Shown: piece by piece, positions 25,316-55,518 of the stretch
Position numbering within the stretch: the first letter of the stretch is position 1
Layout of the letters: every line of letters begins with the position of its first letter
NCBI GenBank assembly: GCA_903945175.1
Contig: CAJAUM010000062.1
Coordinates: forward strand, 1-61,748
Reading direction: 5' to 3'
Length of the DNA stretch: 61,748 nt
DNA from: an uncultured Bacteroidales bacterium
GTDB lineage: Bacteria > Bacteroidota > Bacteroidia > Bacteroidales > FEN-979
Notes under the pieces: model-generated
Told to the model about the DNA's origin: nothing
The model's input: only the letters and a program-made list of their open reading frames with translations
Databases searched by the model: none
Program-made: the position numbers and the translations under genes

Positions 25316-27793
25316 TTATTTACTTTTCAATTCAACAAGAAGGGTCTGCTCCTTTTTGTGGTGGTGGATGTACCTGCACACGACACGCTGACCGTCACGA
25401 ACCATGTTAACAACTTCCCCATCGAGTGCTGCAGATTTGAGGTTCTGCGCATCTTCACCTTCGAACACGATCTCGCCGGCCAGGTCACGGTCGCCGGAGA
25501 GGGTAATCTTCAAACAACCGTCAGAAAATTCAATCCCCAATAAATCAGAGGTGCTGTGCAGGATCTTGAGTCCGCCGGAAACCTGCAGGCACAGCGGGGT
25601 TAACACACCGTACAACGGCGGCCATACGATCTCCTCCTGCATAGAGGGAATCGTAATGGCTTCGCCACTTTCGGGATGGGTGTATGGAATCGTGATGTTT
25701 TCGCCACTTTCGGGATGGGTGTAGGTCACTTTACCGGTTTGCTCTTCGTTGTAGTAATTGCCGATGAAAAGCATGCCTGACCCGTCGCTTGTGAAACGCT
25801 CCCTTACAGCAATCCAATCGCTGCCGGCTGATGCCTGCCTGAGTTTCGCACCCGATCTCTCCAGAATGGTCTCATACACCGGTTTGTGTCCTTCGGTGTC
25901 GAACCCGATCCATGTGCCCAGGTGAATCACCGATCCGCTCCCAAGGGTTTTTGCGAATCCGCAAGGGGTGCCATACAGCGTGCGGGCAATCACCTCCGCC
26001 CCGGCGAGCGACTCTTCAGAATAGGTAACCAGCGGATTGGCACACTTGATATCTTTCAGATCATATATATCGATCAGTGGAGAATCAATGATTTCATTTC
26101 CGGATGGGGATATGGATAAGGCGTCACGAATAAGGGTGCATGGCTTTTGCGACATTTCACGATCGGGCAGGTATGGAAAAATAACACAATTGCCGCCGGC
26201 TTTGGTATAATCAACGATGGTTTGCTGATCGCGGCCATTCATCTCGTCGGTGCAGAAGGCCCAGACTTGTTTATATGTTTTCAATGTATCCGCAGAAGCT
26301 TTGCTCAGGTCGATCATGTCATAATCAATATTCAGCACCTGGAGCGCTTTCAGCAATCCGTCGAAATATGCAGGCCGGCGGATGGCAGAAGGTGTGAACA
26401 TCAATTCAATTGCCCCGTCAACCGGTCGTTCCAGCTCCGTTGCATAATAGGGCGGATAGAACAGGACACACACCTCCGCTTTGCGTTTTGCATTTACGAT
26501 CAGACTTTCGGAGGTTCTGATGACCCTATTCATCCGTTTGACAAGGGGGAAAGCACTGGTGCGCTCCCCTTCAGCCGTAAGCGGGTTGAACCAGTAAAAG
26601 GTTTCCCCGGAATAGCCCTTGCGGCGCGGGTTGCGACCCTGCGAGAACATGTAGTAGTTCCAGCCGGTAAGGCCGTTGGCTACGCTGGCCTTATAGAAGA
26701 GTTCCATCTCCCGTGGATTCGTCACCACGTGATATTCACGGGAGCCGCACTGGAATTCAGCTGCAAAAAGCGGCTTGTTCCCCTGCATGGCATGGGTTAT
26801 GTCATTGATGATCCGGTCGTCGTGCAAATTACGGTACGAAAGGAATTCCGGAATATGGTCGACGCCGAACATGATCTCACTTTTATCCCCAAAAAGATCA
26901 TCATACATGGTGATGTTGACCGGAAATTCATAGCCGTTTCCATAGATCCATCCGGGGAGGTTATGATAGAGCGGAACGGTTACCCCCCTTTCCCTGGCCT
27001 TGGCGGTGAGCAATCGCAGGTAGTCGCCGTAATAGCTTCTCCAGAAACAGTGCCATTCATAATCACGGCCACGGTCGGCCCTGGATGCATAGGGAAGTCT
27101 GCCGTCGGGGGGTAATTCCACCTGGTCAAAACCACGGAAATTTGTTCCCCACAAGCTGTTTACCTCTGCAATCGTTGTGAATTTACGCATGAGGCAGGCA
27201 ATGAAGTGATCCTTTACCGCATTGCTGTAATCGGCCTGCCTGGCAAGCCAGGAAAATACGCCGATTTCATTGCATATCTGCATCATGATGATGGGACCGC
27301 CTGCTGATATTTCGTGTGCCCTGATGAACGGCATAACCTGATCGTACCAAAGGGTTACCTTTTCCAGGTATTTCTGATTAAACAGGCTCACGCCGTCACT
27401 CGGCACTATTTCGCCTTTGCTGTTGCGCATTTTGACCTCTTCACGATGCCGATCCATAAACCAGTCGGGCAGTCCGGCCCCCCGGAACTCGGCCAGAATA
27501 AATGGTCCCGGTTTCAGGATGCAATGTAATCCCAGAGCCTGGCATCGCTGGAGCCACCCCTTCAGATCGCGTTCGGGGCAGGATGAGCCGTCAAAATCAA
27601 ACTTCCCCTCCTCCGGTTCGTGCCATGCCCATGGAACGTAGGCGCTAATGGTTGTCAACCCGGCTTCTTTGGCTGCTTCCAGGTGTTTGTCCCACAGTTC
27701 GCGCTTTATCCTGAAATAATGAATCTCCCCCGACAGGAGAAAAACCTTTTTGTCGTCAAGATAAAAGTTATCGTCTTTAATACTGAATTTCAT
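25316..27793 (-). CDS. GH35-like beta-glycosidase
   Basis: 825 aa with no signal peptide, so cytosolic. The N-terminal TIM barrel (about 1-400) has GH35 features: LLSGEIHYFRIKRELW, ISAYVPWAWHEPEEGKFDF and LKPGPFI. Likely acid/base Glu176 is in QICNEIG and likely nucleophile Glu346 in FAAEFQCG. A Rossmann-like domain (about 455-640, glutaminase-amidotransferase-like as in GH42) and C-terminal beta domains follow. The C-terminal part contains a 13-residue tandem duplication. The start codon is part of a 7-bp tandem array shared with the transporter 3' end. Between a GPH transporter and a GH94 phosphorylase it should trim imported glucosides or galactosides; the exact linkage is unknown. Confidence 0.82.
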   Translation of the reverse strand: MKFSIKDDNFYLDDKKVFLLSGEIHYFRIKRELWDKHLEAAKEAGLTTISAYVPWAWHEPEEGKFDFDGSSCPERDLKGWLQRCQALGLHCILKPGPFILAEFRGAGLPDWFMDRHREEVKMRNSKGEIVPSDGVSLFNQKYLEKVTLWYDQVMPFIRAHEISAGGPIIMMQICNEIGVFSWLARQADYSNAVKDHFIACLMRKFTTIAEVNSLWGTNFRGFDQVELPPDGRLPYASRADRGRDYEWHCFWRSYYGDYLRLLTAKARERGVTVPLYHNLPGWIYGNGYEFPVNITMYDDLFGDKSEIMFGVDHIPEFLSYRNLHDDRIINDITHAMQGNKPLFAAEFQCGSREYHVVTNPREMELFYKASVANGLTGWNYYMFSQGRNPRRKGYSGETFYWFNPLTAEGERTSAFPLVKRMNRVIRTSESLIVNAKRKAEVCVLFYPPYYATELERPVDGAIELMFTPSAIRRPAYFDGLLKALQVLNIDYDMIDLSKASADTLKTYKQVWAFCTDEMNGRDQQTIVDYTKAGGNCVIFPYLPDREMSQKPCTLIRDALSISPSGNEIIDSPLIDIYDLKDIKCANPLVTYSEESLAGAEVIARTLYGTPCGFAKTLGSGSVIHLGTWIGFDTEGHKPVYETILERSGAKLRQASAGSDWIAVRERFTSDGSGMLFIGNYYNEEQTGKVTYTHPESGENITIPYTHPESGEAITIPSMQEEIVWPPLYGVLTPLCLQVSGGLKILHSTSDLLGIEFSDGCLKITLSGDRDLAGEIVFEGEDAQNLKSAALDGEVVNMVRDGQRVVCRYIHHHKKEQTLLVELKSK
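25647..25724 (-). repeat. 39-bp in-frame tandem duplication in the GH35-like gene
   Basis: Copies 25647-25685 and 25686-25724 differ at only four positions and encode the 13-residue units YTHPESGENITIP and YTHPESGEAITIP. The unit is a multiple of three, so the frame is kept. The near identity indicates a recent duplication. Confidence 0.9.
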
Positions 27794-27860
27794 TGGTCAT
27801 TGGTCATTGGTCATTGGTCATTGGTCATTGGTCATTGGTCATTGGTCTTTGGTCATTGGT
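27791..27860. repeat. Short tandem array, ten 7-bp units (CATTGGT), transporter/GH35 junction
   Basis: Ten consecutive units of CATTGGT, only the ninth (CTTTGGT) deviating. On the coding strand each unit contains both ATG and TGA. The transporter stop codon (27825-27827) and the GH35-like start codon (27791-27793) both lie inside the array. Unit length 7 makes the frame rotate with each copy. Confidence 0.97.
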
Positions 27861-29939
27861 CACGTTTCTTTGCCTGAGCAAATCCTTAATCTCGTGGCTT
27901 CGTTTCTCTGTCAGCGAGTACTTCAGAACAAAGAAGATTGAAAAAAGGCTCAACAGCAAGGGCAATCCGATTTCAACTACACGCATCATTAAAAGTGTAT
28001 AAGGAGTTTGCTGGGTGAGCGGCATGATGCTGTTTTCGATGGATCCAAGTTCTTTATCCAGAAAATCCGGTGACATTGTCATATTCAGGTTTGCAATCCG
28101 TTCATTCACCCCGGTTACCTCCCCGATAAGCTTTTGATAGTGCTCCCTGCTGTTTTTGGTTTCCCGGGATCTATTTTCCAGGCGCGACATGAGTTCAAAA
28201 GAATTCATCCTTGCTTTTACAATCTTCGTATGAAGTGTAAGGGTGATCGCTCCTTTGATGATGCTGTCAATACCTGAAGGCTGGGTCTCAGACTTTGCTT
28301 GTTCAAGTCGCGACTGCAACTGTTCCAGTTCCGCCAGGGTAGTTTGAGTCGTTGACGAAGCGTTTAACAGGGCATCTTTCTTCTGCTTTGGATAATCAGG
28401 AAGGCTTATGTTTGTCTCGTCCTGGTTCTTCAGAGTCTCTTTTCCAAGATATGTCAAATATTCTTTTGCTTCCGTGATTGCTTCAGCGGTTTGAGTTTTT
28501 GTGTTTTCAACCCACTCCCTGTTGGCGGTGGCAATACCCTTATAGCCTTCCCAGTACTGAACCTTACTGCGCATTTCCCGAACACTTCCTTGTATCTTAT
28601 CGACTTTTGTTACCTGGGTTTCGTCGAACATGGTAAAAACAATCAACGCACCTGCGACAAAGCTGGCCAGGGCAGATCCCATTTTGATGAACCACCAGAA
28701 TACGGAATAATAACTGCCCTCTACCCGATAGCCGGTCTTTAACTCTTCTTCGTCACAGATATCGCCCACCATGGAGGATCCCAGGGTAAAGAAAAACAGC
28801 ATTCCGGCAGAAAGCAGAAATGTTGGGATGATGATCAGGTAGGGATATGAAGGGTTATAGCATACAATTTTAGATAGTTGCGCAAGGCACATGAGTAAAA
28901 TAGCAATGGTGAGTGTGTTTCTTTTCCCCAGTTTCGGACTGATCCAGTTGAGGGGGAATACCGCCAGTACCCCGGTGATGGCCCATATTGTGCCGTTGAT
29001 TGCAAGCATGTAAGCTCCGGCAACTTTATCTCCCCCGAAAACATAAAAAATAGGAATGTATGACCCGAGCAGCTGGACAAAAGCAAAGCCCATGTTCAAC
29101 GTGAAAATTGTCAGCGTCAACATGATAAAATTTCTGTTGCTGGCAGTACGTTTCATGTCTTTCCAGAAGGGTGTTTTTTCATGCTTGGCAGCTTTTACAA
29201 AACCCGGCTCACGCAATTTGAAAAACCACCAGAACGAAAGCGGGATCAGGAAGGCAGCGATCATGAGGGAAACGTAGCGCATCCCGTCAGCCTCATTTCC
29301 TCCGGGACCTTTGAAAATTTCCATGCTGGCGAGGACCAAAAGCCAGGGTGTGCTCATCGCAAAAAGATTGCCGACAAAACTCTTGGCGCTGAACAGGCGG
29401 GTACGTTCGTGGTAATCGGTGGTCATCTCCATTCCAAGAGCGCCGTGAGGGATCTCGAAAAGATTAACGGCAGTAAAAAACAGCAGCAGGGAAAAAAGAA
29501 TATAGCCAAGCTGAAACCATTGGAAGCCCGCATCCGACGGGAACCAGGTGCGCACCATGTCGCCCTTTGGGATCCACCAGATGACGACAAAAAATACAGC
29601 CACGAGTAATCCGCCAATCAGCAGATAGGGGCGCCGGCGTCCCCAGCGGGTCCGGGTATTATCGGAAAGATGACCGATAAAGGGATCAGAGAGGGCATCC
29701 CACAAACGGGGGACGATGAGAATGGCTCCAAGCCAGAATGCGCTCAGCCCGAGACTTATATTGCCCATTAGGCCCACGAGTATTCCGGCTATGTTGAAAA
29801 GGGCAATGGGAATGATCCCCCCGGCCCCATAGGCAGCCAACTGTGTAAATCGAATCCGGTCTTCCGGTTTTGTGGCGTGATCCGTGCGTTTTTCCTGGTC
29901 TTTCATTTGGTTCCCAATTGATTTACGTGCTGCCTGCAC
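27825..29939 (-). CDS. GPH/MFS-type sugar transporter with ~200-residue insertion before the last membrane segment
   Basis: Inner-membrane sugar:cation symporter of the glycoside-pentoside-hexuronide type. Family motifs include LGAILIVPRLWDALSDPFIG, GHLSDNTRTRWGRRRPY and VGDICDEEELKTGYR. The usual length is about 450-500 aa; this one has 704. About 200 extra residues (roughly 440-644) rich in Glu, Lys and Gln with coiled-coil character (TLAELEQLQSRLEQAKSE) lie between the penultimate and final membrane helices. The true start may be the Met at codon 12 (29906, MKDQEKRTDHATKPED). The last residues (VTNDQRPMTNDQ) are encoded by the 7-bp tandem array. It is expected to import oligosaccharides released by the GH144-type protein. 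Confidence 0.85.
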   Translation of the reverse strand: MQAARKSIGNQMKDQEKRTDHATKPEDRIRFTQLAAYGAGGIIPIALFNIAGILVGLMGNISLGLSAFWLGAILIVPRLWDALSDPFIGHLSDNTRTRWGRRRPYLLIGGLLVAVFFVVIWWIPKGDMVRTWFPSDAGFQWFQLGYILFSLLLFFTAVNLFEIPHGALGMEMTTDYHERTRLFSAKSFVGNLFAMSTPWLLVLASMEIFKGPGGNEADGMRYVSLMIAAFLIPLSFWWFFKLREPGFVKAAKHEKTPFWKDMKRTASNRNFIMLTLTIFTLNMGFAFVQLLGSYIPIFYVFGGDKVAGAYMLAINGTIWAITGVLAVFPLNWISPKLGKRNTLTIAILLMCLAQLSKIVCYNPSYPYLIIIPTFLLSAGMLFFFTLGSSMVGDICDEEELKTGYRVEGSYYSVFWWFIKMGSALASFVAGALIVFTMFDETQVTKVDKIQGSVREMRSKVQYWEGYKGIATANREWVENTKTQTAEAITEAKEYLTYLGKETLKNQDETNISLPDYPKQKKDALLNASSTTQTTLAELEQLQSRLEQAKSETQPSGIDSIIKGAITLTLHTKIVKARMNSFELMSRLENRSRETKNSREHYQKLIGEVTGVNERIANLNMTMSPDFLDKELGSIENSIMPLTQQTPYTLLMMRVVEIGLPLLLSLFSIFFVLKYSLTEKRSHEIKDLLRQRNVTNDQRPMTNDQ

Positions 29940-29961
29940 TTTTTTATTTGTGACAAGTATA

Positions 29962-30783
29962 TTACTTTAGTTTTCTTAAAGTTTTGTTACCAAGTAACGA
30001 TTTCATTTGATTAATGGCAATTTTATTGAGTTGCAACAATCTTTCGCTTTGTGATAATCCCTGATGAATCAACACAGCATTGATACTTTCCATATTTGAA
30101 AGGACAACCAGTTGTTCGATAGTTGCCATATCCCTGATGTTCCCCTCTGCATCCGGATTTTCGTTTCTCCAATCCATTGCCGTTTTCCCAAATAAAGCCA
30201 TATTCAGCATATCCGCTTCATTGGCATATACAAACGATATTTGATTTTTAGTAAGTTCTACAGGAATGAGTTTTTCCTTAATGGCATCGGTATGAATATG
30301 ATAATTTACTTTGGCAAGGGTTCGTTGTAGGTTCCAATCTAATTTCAGGCGGTCGTTTTCATCCTCTTTAAGGCGTTGAAATTCTTTGATTATATATAAT
30401 TTGAATTCTATGGAAATCCATGAAGCAAACTCAAAAGCTATATCCTTGTGGGCAAAAGTACCCCCATAACGCCCAGATTTAGAAATAATGCCAATGGCAT
30501 TTGTTGCTTCTATCCATTTTTTTGGTGTTAATACAAAACTGTTAAGGCCAGCTTGTTTTCTAAACCCCTCGAATTCGAGGGGTTTAAAATTTGGGTTGTA
30601 CATCAACTCCCAAAAACCTAATAATTCAACCGTGTTTCGGTTTCGGAGCCAATTTTGAATAATAGAATCTGTATTACTTACATCTTTATGACGTGCAATG
30701 TCAGTAAGGGAAAAAAAATCTTCTTTTTCTAGCTTTAAAAGAACTATTTCAATTCCATTCACATTTATTTTTTGATTTTTCAT
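29962..30783 (-). CDS. KilA-N domain protein
   Basis: 273 aa from the ATG at 30783; a TTG start at 30801 would overlap the upstream stop and is less likely. KilA-N domains are DNA-binding modules of phage and mobile-element proteins. Family segments seen are FSLTDIARHKD, IIQNWLRNRNTVELLGFWE, GLNSFVLTPKKWIEATNAIGI and SKSGRYGGTFAHKDIAFEFASWIS. Residues about 150-270 are helical and lack a recognised domain. It sits 14 bp after the GH144-containing gene and 22 bp before the transporter, so it is embedded in a sugar operon. It is more AT-rich than its neighbours, which suggests acquisition. No function in sugar use is known. Confidence 0.88.
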   Translation of the reverse strand: MKNQKINVNGIEIVLLKLEKEDFFSLTDIARHKDVSNTDSIIQNWLRNRNTVELLGFWELMYNPNFKPLEFEGFRKQAGLNSFVLTPKKWIEATNAIGIISKSGRYGGTFAHKDIAFEFASWISIEFKLYIIKEFQRLKEDENDRLKLDWNLQRTLAKVNYHIHTDAIKEKLIPVELTKNQISFVYANEADMLNMALFGKTAMDWRNENPDAEGNIRDMATIEQLVVLSNMESINAVLIHQGLSQSERLLQLNKIAINQMKSLLGNKTLRKLK

Positions 30784-30797
30784 AAATTCAATAGCCT

Positions 30798-38678: not shown

Positions 38679-38686
38679 TACTTTTG
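38679..38686 (+). promoter_or_regulatory. -7 promoter box directly before ruvB
   Basis: TACTTTTG matches TAnnTTTG and ends only 2-5 bp before the candidate ATG codons (38689, 38692). Transcription would start about at the ATG, suggesting a leaderless mRNA and excluding a GTG start at 38686. Confidence 0.55.
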
Positions 38687-38688
38687 TG

Positions 38689-39714
38689 ATGATGAATGAA
38701 AACCTTGATCCTTCCGGAAATTTGTTAAATCCGGCAGAAAAAGAGATAGAAAAAGCTTTAAGACCCAGCGGGTTTATCGAATTTTCAGGTCAGGAAGCCA
38801 TCGTTGAAAACCTGAAGATTTTCGTACTTGCCGCCAGGCAGCGGAATGAAGCGCTTGACCATGTTTTGCTTCACGGTCCACCGGGTCTTGGAAAGACTAC
38901 GCTGGCCCATATCATTGCGAATGAACTGCAGGTGAATATCCGGGTGACCTCGGGGCCGGTGATTGACAAGCCCGGGGATCTTGCGGGATTGCTGACCGGT
39001 CTGGAGCCGAACGATGTGCTGTTTATTGACGAGATTCACCGGTTATCCCCTGTGGTGGAGGAATATCTTTATTCAGCCATGGAGGATTACAAGATTGACA
39101 TCATGATCGAAAGCGGTCCGAATGCCCGGAGCATCCAGATCAAACTGAACCCCTTCACCCTGGTCGGGGCTACCACACGGTCAGGATTGCTTACAGCGCC
39201 GCTTCGTTCGCGTTTCGGGATCAATTCACGGCTAAACTATTACCAGGCCGGCACCCTCGACCAGATCATTCACCGCTCTGCTGAGATCCTGGATGTTCCC
39301 ATCGACAAGGCGGCCGCTTCCGAAATTGCACGCCGCAGCCGGGGTACACCCCGCATTGCCAACCTGCTGCTGCGCAGGGTTCGCGATTTTGCCCAGATCA
39401 AAGGCGACGGTAAAATCGACCTGAAGATCAGCCAGTATGCACTCAGCGCCCTGAATGTGGATAAAAATGGTCTTGATGAGATGGACAACAAGATCCTGAT
39501 GACCATCATTGAAAAATTCAAAGGAGGGCCTGTCGGACTGGGGACCATTTCAACCGCAGTTTCTGAAGATGCCGGAACCATCGAGGAGGTGTACGAACCA
39601 TTCCTCATCCAGGAGGGCTACCTCATGCGTACGCCGCGCGGACGCGAAGTGACGGAACTGGCATACCGGCATCTTGGGAAGATGAAAGCTGGGACGCAGG
39701 ACAGACTGTTTTGA
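38689..39714 (+). CDS. ruvB: Holliday junction branch migration helicase RuvB
   Basis: AAA+ motor of the RuvAB complex that drives branch migration at Holliday junctions. The AAA+ core carries Walker [13 protein letters not shown], Walker [11 protein letters not shown], sensor 1 [11 protein letters not shown] and the arginine finger region LRSRFGI. A winged helix follows ([10 protein letters not shown] and [15 protein letters not shown]). Length about 341 aa is normal. The ATG at 38692 is an equally good start; the -7 box makes the GTG at 38686 implausible. The stop codon overlaps the first unit of a 7-bp tandem array, with queG next. Confidence 0.98.
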
Positions 39715-39741
39715 ATTACCAATTACCAATTACCAATTACC
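39714..39741. repeat. Short tandem array, four 7-bp units (AATTACC), ruvB/queG junction
   Basis: Four perfect AATTACC units, starting on the last base of the ruvB stop codon, then a degenerate fifth (AATGACG). The queG start follows at 39765. Unlike the other arrays, the unit has no stop codon on the sense strand. Confidence 0.93.
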
Positions 39742-39764
39742 AATGACGAATTTTTGATTTTCTG

Positions 39765-40751
39765 ATGTCGGGATCCGGAGGTAAAAAATCAACAGGAATT
39801 AATGGAGCGCAGATTCGTGCCGAGGCGCGGCGGCTTGGGTTTTCGTTCTGCGGGATGGCGCGAAATGAGCCGCTGGAGGACCTAAGAGCGTTATATACCC
39901 GCCTAATCCAACGGAAAGGCCCGGCTGGATTGAAATATCTTGAGACCTATCTTGAGAAGCGTTTAAATCCGGAGCTTATACTGAAGGGAGCCCGGTCTGT
40001 TATCGCAGTTATGATGAATTATTATCCGCAGGATGAAATCCCCGGAACCGGCAATTTTATCATCTCAAAATATGCCTATGGCCGCGATTATCACCTGTTG
40101 ATGCGTGAACGGCTTGGATTGCTTATAGCATTTTTGAAATCCATCACTGCGGATCTGAGTGGCAGGGAATCCGAGGATTCGGGTCCGGTCTATGATCTGC
40201 ATGCCAGGGCATTCGTGGATTCAGGTCCGGTTTTGGAGAAAGCCTGGGCTCAGCGATGCGGGCTGGGGTGGCAGGGAAAAAACACCCTGGTCATCCATCC
40301 GTTGGCAGGTTCGTTTTTTTTTATCGGGATCATCCTTACAACCCTGGAGCTTGAACCCGATGCGCCGGAATCAGACCATTGCGGCTCATGCGAAAAATGC
40401 ATCAAAGCCTGTCCGACCGGGGCGCTTGATACACCCTACCAGCTCGATATCCGGCGCTGCATCTCATACCTGACCATTGAAAGCAAGGAAGAGATACCAG
40501 TTGAATTAAAAGGAAAGCTGAAGGATCGCATTTACGGTTGCGACATTTGCCAGGATGTTTGCCCCTACAACCGTTTCGCGGTGCCTAACGGGATTCCTGA
40601 ATTCGACCCGTCTGAACCCTTGATGCAGATGAGAAAAAAGGAGTGGCTTTCCCTGACGGAAGCTGATTTCGACAGGATGTTCGCAGCCACGCCTGTTAAA
40701 AGAATGGGATACGCGCGATTGATGAGAAACATTCGTGCGGCTTCACAGTGA
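39765..40751 (+). CDS. queG: Epoxyqueuosine reductase
   Basis: Cobalamin- and Fe-S-dependent reduction of epoxyqueuosine to queuosine in tRNA, the last step of queuosine biosynthesis. Two [4Fe-4S] motifs are visible: CGSCEKCIKACPTGAL and CDICQDVCPYN. The QueG N-terminal domain has YAYGRDYH, DLHARAFVDSGPVLEK and GLGWQGKNTL. The length of 328 aa is typical; the C-terminal HEAT-like extension of some QueG proteins is absent. It follows ruvB across a 7-bp tandem array and overlaps the convergent ubiX gene by 9 bp at the 3' ends. Confidence 0.96.
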   Translation: MSGSGGKKSTGINGAQIRAEARRLGFSFCGMARNEPLEDLRALYTRLIQRKGPAGLKYLETYLEKRLNPELILKGARSVIAVMMNYYPQDEIPGTGNFIISKYAYGRDYHLLMRERLGLLIAFLKSITADLSGRESEDSGPVYDLHARAFVDSGPVLEKAWAQRCGLGWQGKNTLVIHPLAGSFFFIGIILTTLELEPDAPESDHCGSCEKCIKACPTGALDTPYQLDIRRCISYLTIESKEEIPVELKGKLKDRIYGCDICQDVCPYNRFAVPNGIPEFDPSEPLMQMRKKEWLSLTEADFDRMFAATPVKRMGYARLMRNIRAASQ

Positions 40752-44918: not shown

Positions 44919-45698
44919 ATGTCTGGATTTCTCTTTGATGATGTTGTTTTTGGCCCGGTGCGCAGCAGGCGGCTCGGACTCTCTCTCGGAATTAATTTAC
45001 TTCCGCTTCATTCCAAATACTGCTCTTTTAATTGCATTTACTGTGAATGCGGCTGGACCCCGCCCGAACAGACCCTGCATCCCCAATTTCCATCGCGCGC
45101 TGAGGTGGCCAGCTACCTCGAACAGCGGCTTGAGGAACTGGTCAAAGAGAATCATCTCCCCGATGCCATCACCTATGCCGGAAACGGGGAACCAACCCTG
45201 CATCCCGATTTTTCAGGGATCGTGGATGATACCATTGCCCTGCGGAATAGGTATGCTCCCGGCGCAAAGGTCACTGTGCTCTCAAATGCCAGCATGATCC
45301 ATCATCCCGCTGTTTTTGCAGCGCTGGAAAAACTTGACAACAATATTCTTAAGCTGGATGCCGGGGATGAACCCATGTTTAACCTCATCAACAACCCAGT
45401 TGAACCAGTGAAGCTGGACATGCTGATTGAAAATTTGAAGAAATTCAGGAATAATCTCATCATCCAGAGCATGTTCCTGCGTGGAAAATTCAAGGGGCAG
45501 GTCGTTGATAACACAACTGAAATTGAGGTGGCGGGATGGCTTCAGCGTCTGACAGAGATTAAACCAACGCTGGTCATGATCTATCCCATTGCCCGGGCTA
45601 CACCGGTGCACAACCTTGAGAAAATTGCCCTTGGGGAGCTGGAATCCATTGCCAGAAAAGTTGAAGCGGCCGGGATTCAGGTTCAGGTATACGCGTGA
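44919..45698 (+). CDS. Radical SAM protein
   Basis: 259 aa. The SAM/[4Fe-4S] motif CxxxCxxC is seen as CSFNCIYC (about residues 34-41), with YAGNGEPTLHP as the GGE-like SAM-binding region. It starts SGFLFDDVVFGPVRSRRLG, typical of the MoaA/wyosine-related radical SAM group of short enzymes. The substrate is unknown. The stop codon is the start of a 7-bp tandem array. The small W-L repeat protein follows on the same strand. Confidence 0.88.
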   Translation: MSGFLFDDVVFGPVRSRRLGLSLGINLLPLHSKYCSFNCIYCECGWTPPEQTLHPQFPSRAEVASYLEQRLEELVKENHLPDAITYAGNGEPTLHPDFSGIVDDTIALRNRYAPGAKVTVLSNASMIHHPAVFAALEKLDNNILKLDAGDEPMFNLINNPVEPVKLDMLIENLKKFRNNLIIQSMFLRGKFKGQVVDNTTEIEVAGWLQRLTEIKPTLVMIYPIARATPVHNLEKIALGELESIARKVEAAGIQVQVYA

Positions 45699-45730
45699 CG
45701 AATGACGAGTGACGAGTGACGAATGACGAG
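45696..45730. repeat. Short tandem array, five 7-bp units (TGACGAR), radical SAM gene end
   Basis: Units TGACGAA, TGACGAG, TGACGAG, TGACGAA, TGACGAG run without a gap. The first TGA is the stop codon of the radical SAM gene. Because each unit contains TGA and is 7 bp long, all three forward frames are closed. Confidence 0.95.
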
Positions 45731-45740: not shown

Positions 45741-45744
45741 CACA

Positions 45745-46149
45745 ATGGAGAGCCTATATTACCCTGCGAAAATCTGGCTTGCTTTTGGTGAAGCGGTCAA
45801 TGGCAACCAGGAGATCGCAGCATGGTTGCTGAACAACGGATTTCCTGAAGTTGCAGCGCTGGCGCATGCCATCAGGGGCGGTGAGGAGGCTACGGCCTGG
45901 CTGTTTAAAAACAAATTTTTTCACCTCGCTGCACTGGATGCGGCCATTGATGAAAACGTTCAGGCCTATCTATGGCTGCAGAAAAACAAACACCCGTTCC
46001 TGGTTGTTTTTGCCGATGCATGCCGCGGAAAGCAGGCGGCCATTGACTGGTTATATAAAAACAACATGCAGGCCTTTGTACTCATAGCCAAACGAATCAA
46101 AGATCTGCGTGACAACACCACCTTTGATTACCACAAAAAGAAGTTTTAG
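45745..46149 (+). CDS. Small helical repeat protein of unknown function (W-L-x2-N repeats)
   Basis: 134 aa, no signal peptide, all-alpha in appearance. Four units of about 25 residues can be aligned by eye on the pattern A-x2-WL-x2-N: AAWLLNNGFPEVAALAHAI, TAWLFKNKFFHLAALDAAI, YLWLQKNKHPFLVVFADAC and IDWLYKNNMQAFVLIAKRI. The regular spacing suggests a helical-hairpin repeat (ankyrin- or TPR-like in shape, not in sequence), a protein-binding scaffold. I recognise no family. It follows the radical SAM gene across a 7-bp tandem array and has a promoter box adjoining its ATG. Confidence 0.7.
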   Translation: MESLYYPAKIWLAFGEAVNGNQEIAAWLLNNGFPEVAALAHAIRGGEEATAWLFKNKFFHLAALDAAIDENVQAYLWLQKNKHPFLVVFADACRGKQAAIDWLYKNNMQAFVLIAKRIKDLRDNTTFDYHKKKF

Positions 46150-46152
46150 CTT

Positions 46153-49061: not shown

Positions 49062-49496
49062 TCAAGCCGTCCATATCAGCTTTTTCCCAAAACCAAGGCG
49101 ATTATCCGTCATTTTGATAAAATCGGGCGACAGGATCCAAAGATTCAAAGCCGGCATCAGCCTGGCAATCGGGAAGCGTTTAAGATAGGCCGACCTGGCT
49201 TTTTTCAATTCATCTCCCTCCAGTTCCTGCATCAAGCCAGTAAACTGAATTCCCCTGATCTTACCAACGATTTTTGTCTCCAGGGCAATGGTTCCCGCCA
49301 CGTTGGGATTGCCTCCTTCTAAAACGTCCCGGATATGCCTGGTTTCATGGTCTGAGGTGAAAATAAACTGGTTTTGGGCAGGAAGATAGGCATAAAAACA
49401 GGTTGCACAATAGGGGACATTCTCCCTGGCCACAGCAAGTGTTAGAATATGATGTTCTCCAATAAAATCGACGATGCGTGGTTCAGGAAGGGTCAT
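49062..49496 (-). CDS. Pyridoxamine 5'-phosphate oxidase-related FMN-binding protein
   Basis: 144 aa, split-barrel flavin fold. The pattern FIGEHHILTLAVARENVPYC near the N-terminus, FTSDHETRHIRDVLEGG and FTGLMQELEGDELKKARSAY is typical of the general-stress/HugZ-like PNPOx superfamily rather than true PdxH. Its start lies 2 bp after the large barrel fusion gene on the same strand, indicating co-transcription. A flavin- or heme-related redox or stress role is plausible. Confidence 0.83.
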   Translation of the reverse strand: MTLPEPRIVDFIGEHHILTLAVARENVPYCATCFYAYLPAQNQFIFTSDHETRHIRDVLEGGNPNVAGTIALETKIVGKIRGIQFTGLMQELEGDELKKARSAYLKRFPIARLMPALNLWILSPDFIKMTDNRLGFGKKLIWTA

Positions 49497-49498
49497 GG

Positions 49499-52400
49499 TT
49501 AGAAGTCAAGACTAAGTGAAAAATAAAAGACAGGTCTGCTTACGCGGCCATCTTCAATGCCCCAGGCCAGGTCGCCGCGGAGAAAATAGCCAAACAGCCT
49601 CGTTCGTAAGCCAAAACCGAATCCCTCGACAATGGGATCCTTCTGCATTTCAACTTTGATAAACAGCGGATTCCGGTATATGTACTGGGTAAAGAGCTGG
49701 TTGTCTTCCGACCATGGCGTCGCCCCGGTCCAGGCGGTTCCCACATCACCGAAAACAACAACCTGAAAATTGTTGATAAAATCGGACCTGATCGGGCGAT
49801 TGAACAGATACCGGAATACGGGCCATCTCAATTCGGTATTGTAAACGAAAAAGCTGTTGCCATTCCTGATGTTTTGGTTAAACCCGCGCATGTTGGTAGC
49901 CAGCGTCTGGAACGCATAGTTCTGATCGAAGGCAATCGGCGTATTCATGTTGTATGTCGGGAATAACCAGTTATCGACACCACCCATATAATAGAGGAGC
50001 TTATTGCCGCCAAAGGAGGTGCTTGCAGCAAAACGGTTCGCCCACACCAGGGTACGATGCACCTTCTGGTAATTACGGATATCCATACCCAGCACAATCA
50101 TGTTGGTTCCCGAAGAATTGAGCATCTGGTAATATTCTCCGAAAAATTTATAGCGTGTTCCCTGATAAAGGTTCAGCCCCAGACTGCGGGTGTTGTCATA
50201 GGTAAGTTCTCCTTTGATACTGCCCCAGACATTATGGATGTCGGGTATTTTCAGGTTGTATTGATCAGTTGATAGATAGATGGCGCGGTCGTACCGGATG
50301 GATGCGGTGCCCTTGATATTCAGTACCGGATTGAACGGCCAGGTAGCTACATAATATAATTCATGGATCTTATGCCGTATGAGTGAATAGTACCCCAACT
50401 CCTCTACTGCTTTCCTGTGAAAAACGATCTGATGGTCGAGGCGCCGCTTATAATTCCCAAAACTAAAAAGGTACTCATTGTTGATGAGGCTCACGTTCAG
50501 ACGCACCCCGCCGCTGATCCGGTAATCCTCCATCAGATCAGTGACCCCAACCATAAAGAGGGCATTCAATCCGGGGTTGATAAACTCAGGCGTCATGTTT
50601 CCTGTAAAGGGCTGATAGGCAAAATTAAGATAGGTGAAATCAATTTGTGTGACCATCTGGTCAATGTAGTACTCCACATTGTAATTTAACTGCTTGGCCG
50701 TTTTGTACCTATTCACCGAATCCTTACCTGCAGCGCCGCGCTGGTATCCCTTTCCCTGCAATGCTTTGTAGAGGGCGAGGAGATTGTTTGCGACGGTATC
50801 TGTCACGAATGCATTCTCCCCTCCCGGCTGTAACCCGCCCTTCCCGGATGTATCAACCCGCGAAAGGATCTGTTTCACCACCTCACTTTGCCTGACAACC
50901 GTGAAATGTTTCTTTCCCGAGACTGAAAATGGCTCAGCCAACCTGAGGCTGCTGTCGGGTTTTTGCAGTTCAGGTGGTTTCATCTCCGATGCCGGCTTGA
51001 ATACCTTGAAAAAAGAGGGCTGTACCTCCGCTTTTGGTACTTTGGCAGGCCGGATCAAATCGGAGGTGAACATCTTGTAATTTTGATTCTGAAACACGAT
51101 TTCACCTATTTTGGCTGCCTTCGGAGAGATATCCTGTTCGATGATGTTGCGGGAATAATTGGTAACCGGATAGGAGGTTGTATAATAACGGTAATGGGTG
51201 GTGGTGTCGATGAAGGAGATCGTGCTGTCGTATCTGGCAAGATACCGGTTCACAACGCCATTTTGATCACTCAGAAAAGAAAAATAGTTGTCCCCGTATG
51301 GCTGCGGCTGGGTTTCGTGGGCATCTGGCGAATGGGTCAGGCGCTGCAGGATAACGGATTTCGCACTGTAATTATATAGAAACAGGTCATTGAAATAATG
51401 CAGGTCGCCGATCTTCACAGGGTCATCAAAACGAACGGTGTCATTCACCCGGTTTGAGGAAAAGATAATGTTGCCGGAATGATTGATAAACCTGGGATTC
51501 AGGTCGTCGTATACATCCTTCGTAAGCTGTTCATGTGATCCGGAAGCGATGTTGTATACGAAAATGTCGGACTGCCCTTTCTGAACAGCTGAAAAAACCA
51601 GCAGGGATCCGTCGTCAGAGTAAGAGATATCCAACACCTTCTGAAAATTAGCCATGATCTGGTGTTCAAATTTCCGGTCATCCAGGTTATAGAAATAGAG
51701 CCAGATTTCGCCTTTGCGTTCAACAAGAATGGCAAGCACCCGGCCGCTGGGATGCCAGGCTACGAGTGGGTAGGAATAATCGGGCCGGTCGGCCAGCCGA
51801 TATCCTCCGCGGTAGATCCGCCTCTTTTTCCCGGTCTCCGTATCCTGGATGAATACCTTATAAATGCCCAGGTCATGTGTGGTGTAGGCTATCTTATTGC
51901 CGTCAGGACAGATTTTTAACGTTCGGTAAACCCGGTCGGGTTTTTTCCGTTTGTTGATCATCTCGCCTTGCGGTGTAGTCCGGCCGCTCTCCTGGTTCGT
52001 GTACACCTCCTTATAAAAAGCAAGCCACTCCTGCACCACCGACTGGAAACTGGTACCGACAACAAACTGAAAACCCCGTTCCACATTCCGGCTCATGCGG
52101 GCCATATATACAATATTGGGGACGGAGGCAGCGCCATACTTCATGGCGATGTAATTCCATAAAGAATGGCCGGCATAGGTCGCCTCCAGGCCTGTAAGGC
52201 CATTGAACTTGTCATATTTCTTGTTCAGGATGGCATCCCTGACATGATTTTCGATTTCAGCATCCCATTTCCGGGAGATGAAGGATATGAGTCCGTTCAT
52301 ATACCATTCGGGAACAGTAAAAAGAGCATTGTTTTTTATCTGAGCCCCGATCCCCGTTCCGTAGATCATGTTGTTGAGAATTACCTGCGCGATACCTGCC

Positions 52401-52846
52401 CTGATCTGCTGATCAAAATGTTCATAATTTCCGTCAAAAAAGAGGAGGACCCGGCCGCCGATAATCCGGGTAACCCCCCCGGTATTGTAATAATCCCAGT
52501 CACCGAACAATCCTACATTGCTCTGCTTCAGATCAGAGAGTTTATTAAATATGATGAACTGCACCTTCTCCTCAAGATTCGACTGGAGCGACACCTCTAT
52601 CTCCTTGATGTGCTTATCGGCATATTCACTGGTATAAAGCGCCAGTTCTTTCCCATTGAGATAATAGTAGGTATCGAATTTTTCGAAGCGGAAATAGAGC
52701 CAGAGAAAATCATTGTACTGAACCCGGCTCTTCCCGAAAGTCAACTGTGAACCATTGTAAAACTGAGCCTGTCCGGAGAGTGAAAGCAACAGCACGACAG
52801 CAAGAATGATCCATGATCCAGTCCAGCGATTCATTCTTCTGTTCAT
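49499..52846 (-). CDS. Envelope fusion protein: inactive peptidase MA-like domain, TolB-like propeller, outer-membrane barrel
   Basis: About 1115 aa from the ATG at 52846 (MNRRMNRWTGSWIILAVVLLLSLSGQAQ); longer in-frame starts overlap the divergent gene, and 52834 is also possible. After the signal peptide, residues about 25-300 resemble the peptidase MA-like family (VPEWYMNGLISF), but the expected HExxH is missing (IRAGIAQVI). A TolB/WD40-like propeller follows (about 315-620; AWHPSGRVLAILVE, DDGSLLVFSA). Residues about 720-1115 are beta-barrel strands ending in GFGFGLRTRLFGYFLRGD and a terminal Phe, as in Omp85/TamA-type barrels. It may be an outer-membrane assembly or scaffold protein. It is upstream of the PNPOx-like gene. 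Confidence 0.8.
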   Translation of the reverse strand: MNRRMNRWTGSWIILAVVLLLSLSGQAQFYNGSQLTFGKSRVQYNDFLWLYFRFEKFDTYYYLNGKELALYTSEYADKHIKEIEVSLQSNLEEKVQFIIFNKLSDLKQSNVGLFGDWDYYNTGGVTRIIGGRVLLFFDGNYEHFDQQIRAGIAQVILNNMIYGTGIGAQIKNNALFTVPEWYMNGLISFISRKWDAEIENHVRDAILNKKYDKFNGLTGLEATYAGHSLWNYIAMKYGAASVPNIVYMARMSRNVERGFQFVVGTSFQSVVQEWLAFYKEVYTNQESGRTTPQGEMINKRKKPDRVYRTLKICPDGNKIAYTTHDLGIYKVFIQDTETGKKRRIYRGGYRLADRPDYSYPLVAWHPSGRVLAILVERKGEIWLYFYNLDDRKFEHQIMANFQKVLDISYSDDGSLLVFSAVQKGQSDIFVYNIASGSHEQLTKDVYDDLNPRFINHSGNIIFSSNRVNDTVRFDDPVKIGDLHYFNDLFLYNYSAKSVILQRLTHSPDAHETQPQPYGDNYFSFLSDQNGVVNRYLARYDSTISFIDTTTHYRYYTTSYPVTNYSRNIIEQDISPKAAKIGEIVFQNQNYKMFTSDLIRPAKVPKAEVQPSFFKVFKPASEMKPPELQKPDSSLRLAEPFSVSGKKHFTVVRQSEVVKQILSRVDTSGKGGLQPGGENAFVTDTVANNLLALYKALQGKGYQRGAAGKDSVNRYKTAKQLNYNVEYYIDQMVTQIDFTYLNFAYQPFTGNMTPEFINPGLNALFMVGVTDLMEDYRISGGVRLNVSLINNEYLFSFGNYKRRLDHQIVFHRKAVEELGYYSLIRHKIHELYYVATWPFNPVLNIKGTASIRYDRAIYLSTDQYNLKIPDIHNVWGSIKGELTYDNTRSLGLNLYQGTRYKFFGEYYQMLNSSGTNMIVLGMDIRNYQKVHRTLVWANRFAASTSFGGNKLLYYMGGVDNWLFPTYNMNTPIAFDQNYAFQTLATNMRGFNQNIRNGNSFFVYNTELRWPVFRYLFNRPIRSDFINNFQVVVFGDVGTAWTGATPWSEDNQLFTQYIYRNPLFIKVEMQKDPIVEGFGFGLRTRLFGYFLRGDLAWGIEDGRVSRPVFYFSLSLDF

Positions 52847-52979
52847 GCATGCATCATGCGTCATATCCGGCAGTACAAGGGGATTTTTTGGAGGTGCTAA
52901 AATACGATTATTTTCAATGTACCGGCCACATCGCTGCATTTTCCTATCTTTGCAAATCATGTAAAACACCGCTATCTGA

Positions 52980-53618
52980 ATGATAAATGTAGAAAAATTC
53001 GTCTTCAATACCTTTATGGTCAACACCTGGTTATTATACGATGAAACCGGTGAATGCATCCTCATTGATCCAGCATGTTATGAACCTGAAGAGCAGGAGA
53101 GCCTGAAGGAATTTATCAGCGCGAAAAATCTGAAGCTTGTGCGCAATCTCAATACCCATTGCCATATCGATCATGTGCTGGGAAATGATTATGTCGCGCA
53201 TACCTTCGGGATCTATCCGGAGTACCATAAAAATTCGACCTTTCTTTTTCACGTCCTGAAGGAGATCGGCTCCTCCTTTGGCTTTTCGATCGACCGGATT
53301 CCTCCCCCCAAACGGTTCCTTGAAGACGAAGAGACGGTAAGCTGGGGAAATTCTTCACTCAGGGTGCTTTATACCCCCGGCCATGCCGAGGGCAGCGTAT
53401 GTTTTTACAATGAAAGTCAGGGCTTTGTAGTTACCGGCGATGTGTTATTCAAGGATACCATTGGCCGTACCGATCTGCCATCCGGTAATTTTGAACAACT
53501 GATGCAAAGTATAAAAAACAAACTGCTGACCCTCCCGGCAGAGACGCTGGTTTATCCCGGTCATGGGCCGGAGACCTCGATCGGGTATGAGGAGGAGAAT
53601 AATCCGTTTATTAGGTAA
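52980..53618 (+). CDS. MBL-fold metallohydrolase (glyoxalase II-like)
   Basis: 212 aa. The metal motif THCHIDHVLGN (HxHxDH) is at about residues 58-68, with further ligands in YTPGHAEGSVCF and TGDVLFKDTIGRTDLP and YPGHGPET. This is the classic pattern of the small hydroxyacylglutathione hydrolase-like family, which often has no glutathione dependence in Bacteroidota. It starts 134 bp from the divergent barrel-fusion start. Its TAA stop lies in the first unit of an 8-bp tandem array leading into the GT9 gene. Confidence 0.93.
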   Translation: MINVEKFVFNTFMVNTWLLYDETGECILIDPACYEPEEQESLKEFISAKNLKLVRNLNTHCHIDHVLGNDYVAHTFGIYPEYHKNSTFLFHVLKEIGSSFGFSIDRIPPPKRFLEDEETVSWGNSSLRVLYTPGHAEGSVCFYNESQGFVVTGDVLFKDTIGRTDLPSGNFEQLMQSIKNKLLTLPAETLVYPGHGPETSIGYEEENNPFIR

Positions 53619-53669
53619 CAGGGTAACAAGGTAACAGGGTAACAAGGTAACAGGGTAACAAGGTAACAG
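53614..53669. repeat. Short tandem array, seven 8-bp units (GGTAACAR), MBL/GT9 junction
   Basis: Seven perfect units alternating GGTAACAG and GGTAACAA give a 16-bp higher-order period, then a degenerate eighth (GGTGATAG, 53670-53677). The MBL stop codon TAA is in unit 1, and a GTG start candidate for GT9 is in unit 8. Confidence 0.96.
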
Positions 53670-53679
53670 GGTGATAGGT

Positions 53680-54669
53680 GTGAGAAAAATATTGATAATC
53701 CGGTTTAGCTCCATTGGCGACATTGTGCTCACCAGCGCAGTTGTCCGTTGCCTGAAGCAGCAGCTGGATGGAGCTGAAGTTCATTTCCTTACGAAAACCC
53801 AGTTTGGACCCATCCTCAGTTCAAATCCAAACATCGATAAACTGTGGTTGTACGATCACAACTTCAAAGAACTTATTCCGCAATTGAAATCGCAGGAGTT
53901 TGATTTCATTGTTGATCTGCATAAAAATTATCGTTCCGCCTTTGTAAAAAACAAGCTGGGAGTCAGCCATGCCTCCTTTCCGAAATTGAATCTCCGGAAG
54001 TGGCTTGCGGTTCAGTTAAAGCTGAATTGTCTTCCCGATGTTCATATCGTTGACCGTTATTTCAAGGCAGCGGCATCCCTGGATATAAAAAATGACGGGC
54101 GCGGGCTTGATTATTTTATCCCGACAGCAGATGAGGTGGACCTTTCCATGCTCCCATCGACCCATCGTGCCGGATTCGTGGCCATGGTGATCGGAGGCAA
54201 ACACAACACAAAAATTTTCCCTGCCGAAAAGGTCATTGAAGTTTGCAAGCAGCTTGCCCGGCCGGTCGTCCTGCTGGGCGGGAAAGAGGACCGGGATCGG
54301 GGTGATCAGATCGCCGGATCAACAGGAACAATGGTTTTCAATGTGTGCGGACTTTTTAACATCAACCAGTCCGCTTCACTGATCCGCCAGGCTGATGCTG
54401 TCCTGTCGAATGATACCGGGCTGATGCATGTGGCTGCCGCATTTAAGAAGCCCGTTGTATCCGTTTGGGGAAATACCATCCCGGCATTTGGCATGTACCC
54501 CTATCTTCCGGAGGAGTTCAAATCAGATTCGCTCATTGCTGAAGTCAAAGGGTTATCTTGCCGGCCCTGCAGCAAACTTGGACATCAAACCTGCCCGAAA
54601 AAGCATTTCCGTTGTATGAAAGAGATTGATCTGGCTGAGATCGTCACTTTTCTTAACAAGAAATCCTAA
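53680..54669 (+). CDS. Glycosyltransferase family 9 (heptosyltransferase-like)
   Basis: Adds a heptose-type sugar to the lipopolysaccharide core at the inner face of the membrane. The N-terminus MRKILIIRFSSIGDIVLTS matches the family start; a GTG at 53671 (inside the tandem array) would add three residues. Key C-terminal segments are LLGGKEDRDRGD, the donor site SNDTGLMHVAAAFKKPVVSVWG and the Cys-rich CRPCSKLGHQTCPKKHFRCM. The length (about 330 aa) is normal. There are 11 bp to the TatD gene; likely operon MBL-GT9-TatD. Confidence 0.92.
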   Translation: MRKILIIRFSSIGDIVLTSAVVRCLKQQLDGAEVHFLTKTQFGPILSSNPNIDKLWLYDHNFKELIPQLKSQEFDFIVDLHKNYRSAFVKNKLGVSHASFPKLNLRKWLAVQLKLNCLPDVHIVDRYFKAAASLDIKNDGRGLDYFIPTADEVDLSMLPSTHRAGFVAMVIGGKHNTKIFPAEKVIEVCKQLARPVVLLGGKEDRDRGDQIAGSTGTMVFNVCGLFNINQSASLIRQADAVLSNDTGLMHVAAAFKKPVVSVWGNTIPAFGMYPYLPEEFKSDSLIAEVKGLSCRPCSKLGHQTCPKKHFRCMKEIDLAEIVTFLNKKS

Positions 54670-54680
54670 TCTAAAATTGC

Positions 54681-55472
54681 ATGGTTTTTGCCGATTCCCA
54701 CACCCACCTGTATGCAGAAGAATTCGATGCCGACCGCGAAGCCATGATGCACAGGGCAGAACAGAATAAGGTGCTGCATCTGCTTCTTCCTGCCATTGAT
54801 TCGGCCTATCATGAGAAGATGTTACAGGTCACCGCTGATTTTCCGCATGTGTGTTTCCCGATGATGGGGCTGCATCCCACCTCTGTAAAGCAAAATTATC
54901 GGGATGAGCTGGATATCGTTTCAGAACACCTCTCAAATCCTGCGCTGAAGTTTTGGGCCCTTGGTGAAATTGGCATCGATTTATACTGGGACAAAACATT
55001 TGAGGCGGAACAGCGGATTGCCTTTAGTGATCAGCTCGACCTTTCGTTGAAATATGATCTTCCCGTCGTGATTCACACGCGTAATTCCATGGATATTGTA
55101 CTTGAGATCATGGAAGGCCGCAACGATCAGGCCATCCGCGGGGTATTCCATTGTTTCAGCGGCCATACCGAACAGGCAAAACGGGCCATCGACCTGGGAT
55201 TTATGCTCGGCATCGGCGGGGTGGTAACCTATAAGAATTCGGGCTTGCAAACGGTGGTTGAAAACATCGGGATGGAACACCTGCTGCTTGAGACGGATGC
55301 ACCCTGGCTGACACCTGTTCCGCATCGCGGCCAGCGGAATGAGCCATCCTACATCCCGCTTATTGCACAAAAAGTTGCTGAATTAAAGGCCATCGCTCTG
55401 GAAAAGGTCGCTGAAATTACCACTGCGAATGCACGGAGGCTGTTTGGCCTTGGGGACATGGAGAACACGTGA
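54681..55472 (+). CDS. tatD: TatD-family metal-dependent deoxyribonuclease
   Basis: TIM-barrel hydrolase with 3'-5' nuclease activity in known members. Metal ligands are visible: FADSHTHLY (HxH) at the N-terminus, the Glu in LGEIGIDLYWD, VIHTRNSMD, VFHCFSGHTEQA and the final ETDAPWLTP. 263 aa is typical. The start lies close to a TAAAATTG box. Its TGA stop begins an 8-bp tandem array. A paralogous YcfH/YabD specificity cannot be excluded. Confidence 0.93.
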   Translation: MVFADSHTHLYAEEFDADREAMMHRAEQNKVLHLLLPAIDSAYHEKMLQVTADFPHVCFPMMGLHPTSVKQNYRDELDIVSEHLSNPALKFWALGEIGIDLYWDKTFEAEQRIAFSDQLDLSLKYDLPVVIHTRNSMDIVLEIMEGRNDQAIRGVFHCFSGHTEQAKRAIDLGFMLGIGGVVTYKNSGLQTVVENIGMEHLLLETDAPWLTPVPHRGQRNEPSYIPLIAQKVAELKAIALEKVAEITTANARRLFGLGDMENT

Positions 55473-55518
55473 TTTGAGGATTTGAAGATTTGAGGAATTG
55501 AAGATTTGAGGATTTGAG
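55471..55518. repeat. Short tandem array, six 8-bp units (GATTTGAG), tatD/ansA junction
   Basis: Units GATTTGAG, GATTTGAA, GATTTGAG, GAATTGAA, GATTTGAG, GATTTGAG run in sequence. The tatD stop codon TGA (55470-55472) overlaps the first unit. Every unit carries TGA, which closes all forward frames. Confidence 0.92.

Follow-up and report, generated by a model that had tools for sequence, protein, structure and literature searches.

Why do five short tandem arrays on a single bacterial contig each sit at the stop codon of a gene that is followed by another gene on the same strand? The question is raised by a stretch of 61,748 nucleotides from an uncultured Bacteroidales bacterium of the GTDB lineage FEN-979 (contig CAJAUM010000062.1), referred to below as the window; the genome to which it belongs (G000) comprises 4.41 Mb in 155 contigs. 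Tandem Repeats Finder and a reading of the raw sequence agreed on the five arrays, and since neither the window nor 89 kb of intergenic DNA from the same genome gave any array after first-order shuffling (10 of 10 runs each), we consider them to be real. Checking them against the gene calls also upheld the observation of the first-pass annotation that all five begin at, or span, the upstream stop codon and lie between co-directional genes. We propose, with a rough probability of 0.55, that these arrays belong to a population of 7- and 8-bp tandem repeats spread between the genes of the whole genome, a short bacterial satellite in which the period goes with the locus, the spelling of the unit goes with the genome, and the boundary is set by purifying selection.

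The first line of evidence comes from orthologous gene ends. The proteins encoded upstream of arrays 2 to 5 (RuvB, a radical SAM protein, a metallo-beta-lactamase-fold [MBL] hydrolase, and a TatD-family DNase) were sought in 19 genomes of the genus, these four ends having been selected because the window genome carries arrays there. The gene end was readable in 17 genomes for tatD and in 19 for each of the other three, and arrays were counted only if they started within 12 nt of the stop codon, which left 18 arrays (4 after ruvB, 4 after tatD, 6 after the MBL gene, and 4 after the radical SAM gene). Following ruvB, the unit reads AATTACC in G000, AATAGTG in G007, GAGGGAC in G015, and GAATGTC in G008, and following the radical SAM gene it reads TGACGAA in G000, AGTGACA in G008, AAGTGAC in G018, and GCCTACT in G014; all eight arrays have a period of 7. 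The period is 8 in every array after tatD (GATTTGAG in G000, ACAGGCGG in G018, GACAAGGG in G003, and GCGGGTGA in G013) and in every array after the MBL gene (GGTAACAG in G000, with five further units seen in G008, G012, G014, G007, and G003). Thus, the period was equal in 33/33 within-site pairs across the four ends (permutation P = 3e-5) and the unit in 1/33. Among reciprocal best pairs in the fetched stretches of four genomes, 7 of 189 carried an array at both 3' ends, against 1.9 expected (P = 6e-4), with equal periods in all seven and equal units in none; these seven pairs represent five distinct gene ends, three of which are in the window, and are not independent of each other, and some of the stretches had been picked for window orthologues or repeat matches, making the check only partly independent. 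Beyond the 12-nt counting limit, G010 has a pair of more distant arrays after its radical SAM gene, with a period of 8 at 86 nt.

Such concordance of the period at each site disfavours a freshly inserted mobile array. Truncation of the upstream gene as a general cause of the anchoring could be excluded at two ends: the MBL protein has the C terminus (F/Y)IR in 19/19 genomes, array or no array, and RuvB ends in LF in the four genomes with an array as well as in eight without one, the remaining seven, all lacking an array, having one extra residue.

The second line of evidence concerns the units themselves, which had been described as unrelated. On the coding strand, the units of arrays 1 to 3 are ACCAATG, ACCAATT (AATTACC), and ACGAATG (TGACGAA), which differ by a single base from one another or from a shared heptamer, and most units recur genome-wide. 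A 1.046-Mb sample of the same genome, window included, contained 69 arrays with periods of 6 to 10, among which the units AATGACC (15 arrays), ACGCGTC (12), AATGACG (10), AACAGGGT (6), and AATTACC (3) were found repeatedly and GATTTGAG once; by these counts, genome-wide families account for four of the five window arrays. The density in this sample (66 per Mb) is biased upward, as its stretches often came from contigs already matching a repeat search, and 20 contigs picked blind held 6 arrays in 0.20 Mb, or 30 per Mb. As a side observation, several contigs start within arrays (G000:C110, positions 1 to 167; G008:C235, 21 to 202; G008:C524, 2 to 81; and G014:C337, 3 to 93), so assemblies break at arrays, and both the number and the length of arrays are probably greater than counted here.

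Adding stretches of the congeners G013, G018, and G003 gave a pooled set of 1.836 Mb from four species with 139 arrays, 93 of period 7 and 39 of period 8. Within a genome, 33% of period-7 pairs and 25% of period-8 pairs had units no more than one mismatch apart; between genomes the corresponding values were 12% and 8%, and for arrays of different genomes at one and the same site they were 8% and 5%. The within-genome likeness exceeded that in 500/500 label shuffles, near-identical units being about three times as frequent among unlinked arrays of one genome as between genomes. Whole-genome pattern counts agree and show how far such dialects reach. Three copies of GAGGGAC gave 88 overlapping matches in G015 and none in the other 18 genomes; TGACSAA had 199 matches in G000 and was patchy elsewhere (14/61 genomes); GGTAACAG, with up to two mismatches, was found in G000 (209), G017 (294), G003 (72), G018 (63), G008 (14), G012 (4), and G016 (1), and in none of the 12 others; and ACAGGCGG was present in four of 19 genomes (G018, G008, G013, and G003). 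From these counts, the unit dialects are mostly lineage-specific rather than strictly private.

How are the arrays placed? For all placement tests, genes were called by a custom script, a non-standard program. The 139 pooled arrays comprise 121 intergenic ones (92 co-directional, 19 convergent, and 10 divergent), 13 inside called genes, and 5 at contig edges; the last two groups were excluded before the anchoring test, as were 16 of the 92 co-directional arrays that overlapped a gene by more than 4 nt. With random placement in the same gaps as a reference, 19 of the 76 remaining co-directional arrays began from -4 to +3 nt of the stop codon's end (9.6 expected; P = 0.0008), which bears out the claim that stop-codon anchoring is above chance, and 33 began no more than 13 nt after it (20.2 expected, a value as high being reached in 0/10,000 placements). 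On the start-codon side, 7/76 arrays ended between 4 nt inside and 3 nt before the start (9.5 expected), and the wider 13-nt limit gave 24 (20.3 expected; P = 0.16). A separate observation is that the G000 units AAATCGT, AAAATCG, and AAATCAT (C110 at 7819, 31656, and 47370; C52 at 75351; C114 at 18682) form arrays that are co-directional and within 13 nt of a start codon in 5/5 cases, unlike the stop-located TGAC type. In the window genome alone, 8 of 32 non-overlapping co-directional arrays started by the stop codon's end (3.0 expected; P = 0.005), 9 started within 3 nt (5.2 expected; P = 0.054), and 16 started within 12 nt (11.6 expected; P = 0.043).

The supposed absence of arrays from convergent and divergent junctions did not hold, however: the 60 classifiable intergenic arrays of the own-genome sample divide into 44 co-directional, 12 convergent, and 4 divergent. 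By junction length in the pooled set, arrays are more frequent than expected at convergent junctions and less frequent at divergent ones (P = 3e-4), the latter holding 10 of 121 arrays against 28.1 expected, which counts in favour of the satellite reading. Moreover, a stop codon is no more than 13 nt away from 17 of the 19 convergent arrays (10.4 expected; P = 0.0006), so a co-directional downstream gene is not needed. The first-pass annotation had named random placement relative to stop codons, or equal frequency at convergent and divergent junctions, as outcomes that would speak against its idea; the arrays are enriched at stop codons, so the first part of that idea stood, but they are common at convergent junctions, so co-directionality is nothing special.

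The same repeat is found well outside the genus. Four copies of TGACCAA occur in at least 114 stretches of other GTDB genomes; among the matches listed, to which all cyanobacterial and other counts below refer, 92 are cyanobacterial and 22 come from Bacteroidota, Planctomycetota, Verrucomicrobiota, Desulfobacteraceae, Campylobacterales, Methylomirabilota, and Marinobacterium. That TGACCAA forms arrays in so many phyla could reflect convergence or transfer, both being possible. The cyanobacterial loci were picked for containing TGACCAA x4, and arrays of every unit were then counted in them. There, 31 of 154 arrays lay from -4 to +3 nt of a stop codon (8.6 expected), and 31 lay within 13 nt of a start codon (19.3 expected; P = 0.003), so that the heptamer repeats of cyanobacteria, which the first-pass annotation had called the closest known analogue, are indeed a close one. 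The 22 non-cyanobacterial loci held 14 arrays, 1 of them at a stop codon against 0.5 expected in this small sample. The prevailing orientation is opposite to that in the genus: nearer the stop codon, cyanobacterial arrays read GTCA in 32 and TGAC in 14 cases, and nearer the start codon TGAC in 47 and GTCA in 4, whereas genus arrays read TGAC in 21 and GTCA in 3 cases nearer the stop and are split 7 to 7 nearer the start (P = 0.02). Hence, the in-unit stop codon is not what positions arrays in general. In line with this, cyanobacterial units without a sense stop are anchored (18/70 against 2.6 expected), and of the 55 near-stop arrays, 19 carry a sense stop and 36 do not.

Where 50 cyanobacterial arrays abut a gene, the stop codon stands partly in repeat register, with 1.48 of 3 bases matching compared with 0.76 in the alternative registers (P = 3e-6), and no such match is seen for the last sense codon (0.92 versus 0.83); TAG is the stop codon in 22 of these 50 genes and in 149 of 559 other genes (P = 0.013). 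When stop-containing arrays are included, the stop codon is likewise in register in the genus (1.67 versus 0.71; n = 55), a partly circular result, such arrays being in register by construction.

From the placement, the period shared per locus at the tested ends, the units shared per genome, and a stop codon that is partly in register (clearly so in the cyanobacteria), we infer slippage, copying between loci, and neutrality, in the following way. The arrays would be old intergenic satellites, each inherited together with its gene end. Slippage would gain and lose whole units, so that the period persists, and unit sequences would be replaced and made alike across unlinked loci of one genome, giving rise to species dialects; the likely route of replacement would be slippage plus copying between arrays, by ectopic conversion or template switching. 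A period per locus and a spelling per genome are what slippage together with inter-array copying would give. The repeat register would spread until it meets bases under purifying selection, and arrays would thus end at the stop codon, a triplet which, having three interchangeable forms, could be absorbed into the repeat, while the last sense codon usually could not. A function in translation would be unnecessary for this pattern. As slippage predicts, the close species G006 and G010, which have nearly identical tatD flanks, contain different numbers of copies of an imperfect 11- to 12-bp repeat after the MBL gene. The same difference is the observation that bears on phase-variable contingency loci, whose defining trait is that copy-number changes between strains alter expression. 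More tentatively, we suggest that two properties are inherited separately, with the gene end passing on the period and the genome setting the spelling.

Several results weigh against this interpretation. No copying between loci was observed in the genomes compared. Presence is patchy, since at each of the four ends our threshold leaves 13 to 15 genomes, out of 17 to 19 that could be read, without a near-stop array. The C terminus of TatD varies, making truncation possible there, and array 1 encodes the end of its own gene, an exception to the no-truncation pattern. By number, junction types do not differ from expectation in the pooled set (88 co-directional, 16 convergent, and 17 divergent expected versus 92, 19, and 10 observed; P = 0.21). 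The enrichment at stop codons in the window genome alone is real yet depends on the null: with a null allowing 23 nt of gene overlap and all 44 own-genome co-directional arrays, 18 against 17.7 expected lay within 3 nt (P = 0.52) and 26 against 22.4 within 12 nt (P = 0.13). Within the genus, only units with a sense stop show anchoring (12/37 against 4.6 expected, compared with 3/35 against 2.7 for units without one), and part of it may therefore stem from arrays defining the end of the reading frame. In the cyanobacterial loci, it is the sense-stop units that are not significantly anchored (6/77 against 3.8; P = 0.16). Finally, for genus arrays starting -2 to +4 nt of the stop codon's end, the stop was not significantly in register (1.11 versus 0.80; n = 27; P = 0.22).

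An alternative that we regard as unlikely is a selected RNA element at gene 3' ends, with arrays acting singly or as inverted pairs as terminators, RNase barriers, or protein-binding tracts. That arrays hug 3' ends both in the genus and in the cyanobacterial loci would fit, as would the 18 of 121 intergenic arrays with an inverted partner match of at least 12 nt in the same gap (2.1% in the control) and the arrangement after ruvB in G014 (L212), in which the repeat and an approximate reverse complement behind it form a long potential hairpin, ahead of a T run; transcripts have also been reported to start or stop more often at G-quadruplex-forming than at control repeats (Rehm 2015, PMC4692102). 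In G011, too, the repeat after ruvB (L206) is followed by its approximate reverse complement, with a long potential hairpin. An RNA element would, however, have to tolerate a unit that is identical in just 1/33 within-site species pairs, a reversed prevailing orientation in the cyanobacterial loci, and arrays that leave merely 10 to 30 nt ahead of the next start codon. As 103 of the 121 arrays lack an inverted partner of 12 nt, a hairpin or terminator role in general was rejected.

Repeated independent birth, in which a 7- or 8-bp duplication across a stop codon is invisible to the protein and arrays therefore keep arising at gene ends, seems distinctly improbable as the full account. Some gene ends are identical to the first unit, as in G013, where tatD ends in GCGGGTGA followed by GCGGGTGA again and another gene ends in CTTGTAA followed by CTTGTAA, and a shared birth mechanism, one of the suggestions made in the first-pass annotation, is possible for some arrays. 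Birth alone leaves unexplained, however, why the period is the same at each end (33/33 pairs) and why unlinked loci of one genome have units in common.

Both translational roles proposed in the first-pass annotation fared worse. The first, a backstop in which stops in all frames catch frameshifting or readthrough ribosomes, would accord with the higher share of sense-stop units among co-directional genus arrays near a stop codon (27/36) than among those further off (17/43). Such a stop is not conserved, however, being present in 10 of the 18 arrays at the four orthologous ends and in 19 of the 55 near-stop cyanobacterial arrays, and we consider this role very improbable. The second, tuning of re-initiation on the downstream co-directional gene, is scarcely credible: array 1 does provide both an upstream stop and a downstream ATG, but 17/19 convergent arrays are bound to stop codons without any such gene, and four of the five window gaps (46 to 76 nt by our custom gene calls) are longer than the roughly 20 nt that, by the published distance dependence, leave hardly any coupling in Escherichia coli and Haloferax (PMC10666635). 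No more credible is a writer acting in trans, for instance a telomerase-like reverse transcriptase that copies a short RNA template and adds the genome's own repeat at gene ends; although a genome-private unit at many loci (GAGGGAC in G015) and the 9-nt tandem repeats made from an RNA template by the bacterial reverse transcriptase DRT10 (PMC12632851) are suggestive and 16/19 genus genomes have an RVT_1 match, with two reverse transcriptases in G000, the search for RVT_1 drew a blank in three congeners that bear arrays, G013 (97% complete, with 33 arrays in 0.4 Mb), G010, and G011. A diverged enzyme could escape such a search; we set this candidate aside on the enzyme result, no search for a template RNA having been made.

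In the window itself, the genes that flank the five arrays are ordinary ones. Array 1 (27790 to 27862, minus strand; CATTGGT on the plus strand, 7 bp x 10.4) lies between a gene for a glycoside-pentoside-hexuronide cation symporter-like protein (MFS_2; 27825 to 29939, minus strand) and one for a GH35/GH42-like glycosidase (25316 to 27793, minus strand; under the exo-glucosaminidase cut-off). The entire junction is repeat, encoding the C-terminal residues and stop of the symporter as well as the ATG start of the glycosidase. Array 2 (39714 to 39752, plus strand; AATTACC with AATGACG as the last unit, 7 bp x 5.6), whose unit, alone of the five, has no sense stop codon, shares its first base with the last base of the TGA stop of ruvB (38686 to 39714, plus strand) and precedes queG, encoding epoxyqueuosine reductase (39765 to 40751, plus strand). 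In array 3 (45696 to 45729, plus strand; TGACGAR, 7 bp x 4.9), the first TGA is the stop of the radical SAM protein gene (44919 to 45698, plus strand); the array may also supply the last sense codon of that gene, whose product ends in VYA in the window genome and in VYQ in 10/18 congeners. Downstream is a small protein gene without a Pfam or NCBIfam match (45745 to 46149, plus strand).

Array 4 (53614 to 53672, plus strand; GGTAACAR, 8 bp x 7.4) includes in register the TAA stop of the MBL hydrolase gene (52980 to 53618, plus strand) and is followed by a glycosyltransferase family 9 gene (53671 to 54669, plus strand), the start of which is at 53671 or, by the custom caller, at 53692. The first base of array 5 (55471 to 55521, plus strand; GATTTGAG, 8 bp x 6.4) is the second base of the TGA stop of the tatD-family DNase gene (54681 to 55472, plus strand), and a type I asparaginase gene (55549 to 56577, plus strand) lies downstream. 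Apart from these arrays, the glycosidase gene (25647 to 25723) and queG (40152 to 40231) contain internal duplications of about two copies each, of 39 bp and 42 bp, respectively, both lengths being divisible by three. The window also encodes proteins with type A and type B sorting domains of the type IX secretion system (T9SS), which are typical of Bacteroidota.

The placement of these arrays is largely known in kind; the new part is the two-level inheritance. A literature search of titles and abstract openings, with subscription journals mostly outside its reach, found no report of unit replacement with conservation of the period at orthologous bacterial gene ends. If that inheritance is true, dozens of unlinked short arrays in one bacterium would evolve in concert, for which some active process would have to transfer repeat sequence in trans from locus to locus without disturbing the register of each. 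One period with differing sequences at the same gene end argues against sequence-specific explanations there, be it a binding site, a backstop, or a quadruplex. Strains or long reads would allow unit turnover and inter-locus copying to be measured directly. Heptamer arrays near gene ends are known from Xanthomonas, Nostoc, and Beggiatoaceae without an established function, and comparing congeners separates the traits inherited with a locus from those shared within a genome.

Among known systems, the short tandemly repeated repetitive (STRR) sequences of heterocystous cyanobacteria are tandem heptamers dispersed in intergenic DNA. The genus arrays resemble them in that 93/139 have a period of 7 and 121/139 are intergenic, and TGACCAA x4 itself is present in many cyanobacterial genomes; they differ in host phylum (Bacteroidota-type, with T9SS domains), in the existence of 8-bp families, and in their opposite orientation to the stop codon. 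From template-written repeats such as those of DRT10, they are set apart, a diverged enzyme aside, by the congeners G013, G010, and G011, which have no RVT_1 match. Long simple sequence repeats (LSSR) of prokaryotes are tandem units of 5 to 11 nt above chance, heptamers being the commonest in most genomes (Mrazek 2007, cited in PMC4679880 and PMC4692102). Our arrays are likewise beyond chance, with 69 in the own-genome sample and 0 in 10/10 intergenic shuffles, but LSSR are a statistical class rather than a family, and the accounts of them in those two papers describe, in the parts available to us, no period per locus or unit per genome. Borg repeats, for their part, are fast-evolving and rarely conserved at alignable places (PMC9879509).

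The TAACTGA direct repeats of marine Beggiatoaceae, cyanobacteria, and five Bacteroidetes (MacGregor 2015, PMC4679880) are similar in being heptamers with stops in all frames, some overlapping the upstream stop, and in being scattered over distant phyla that include Bacteroidetes. They have a single unit, however, which in the main genome is found mostly just before start codons in 2 to 6 copies (up to 43 elsewhere), while TAACTGA is the unit of 0/139 genus arrays, and these are stop-adjacent (19/76) rather than start-adjacent (7/76 against 9.5 expected). Closest in placement are the heptamers of Xanthomonas and Nostoc, which lie close to stop codons and are rare between divergent genes (Rehm 2015, PMC4692102); in the genus, too, aligned junctions outnumber convergent and divergent ones (92/19/10, a split that by itself is as expected; P = 0.21) and arrays are near stop codons (P = 0.0008). 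Yet the repeats described there, GGGAATC and GGGGA(C/T)T, are G-rich and quadruplex-forming, with one unit type in both xanthomonads, and GGGAATC, GGGGATT, or GGGGACT occurred in 0/139 genus arrays. By contrast, the units of the genus are mostly not G-rich (14/139 have a G3 or C3 tract), come in periods of both 7 and 8, and vary between congeners at one and the same gene end.

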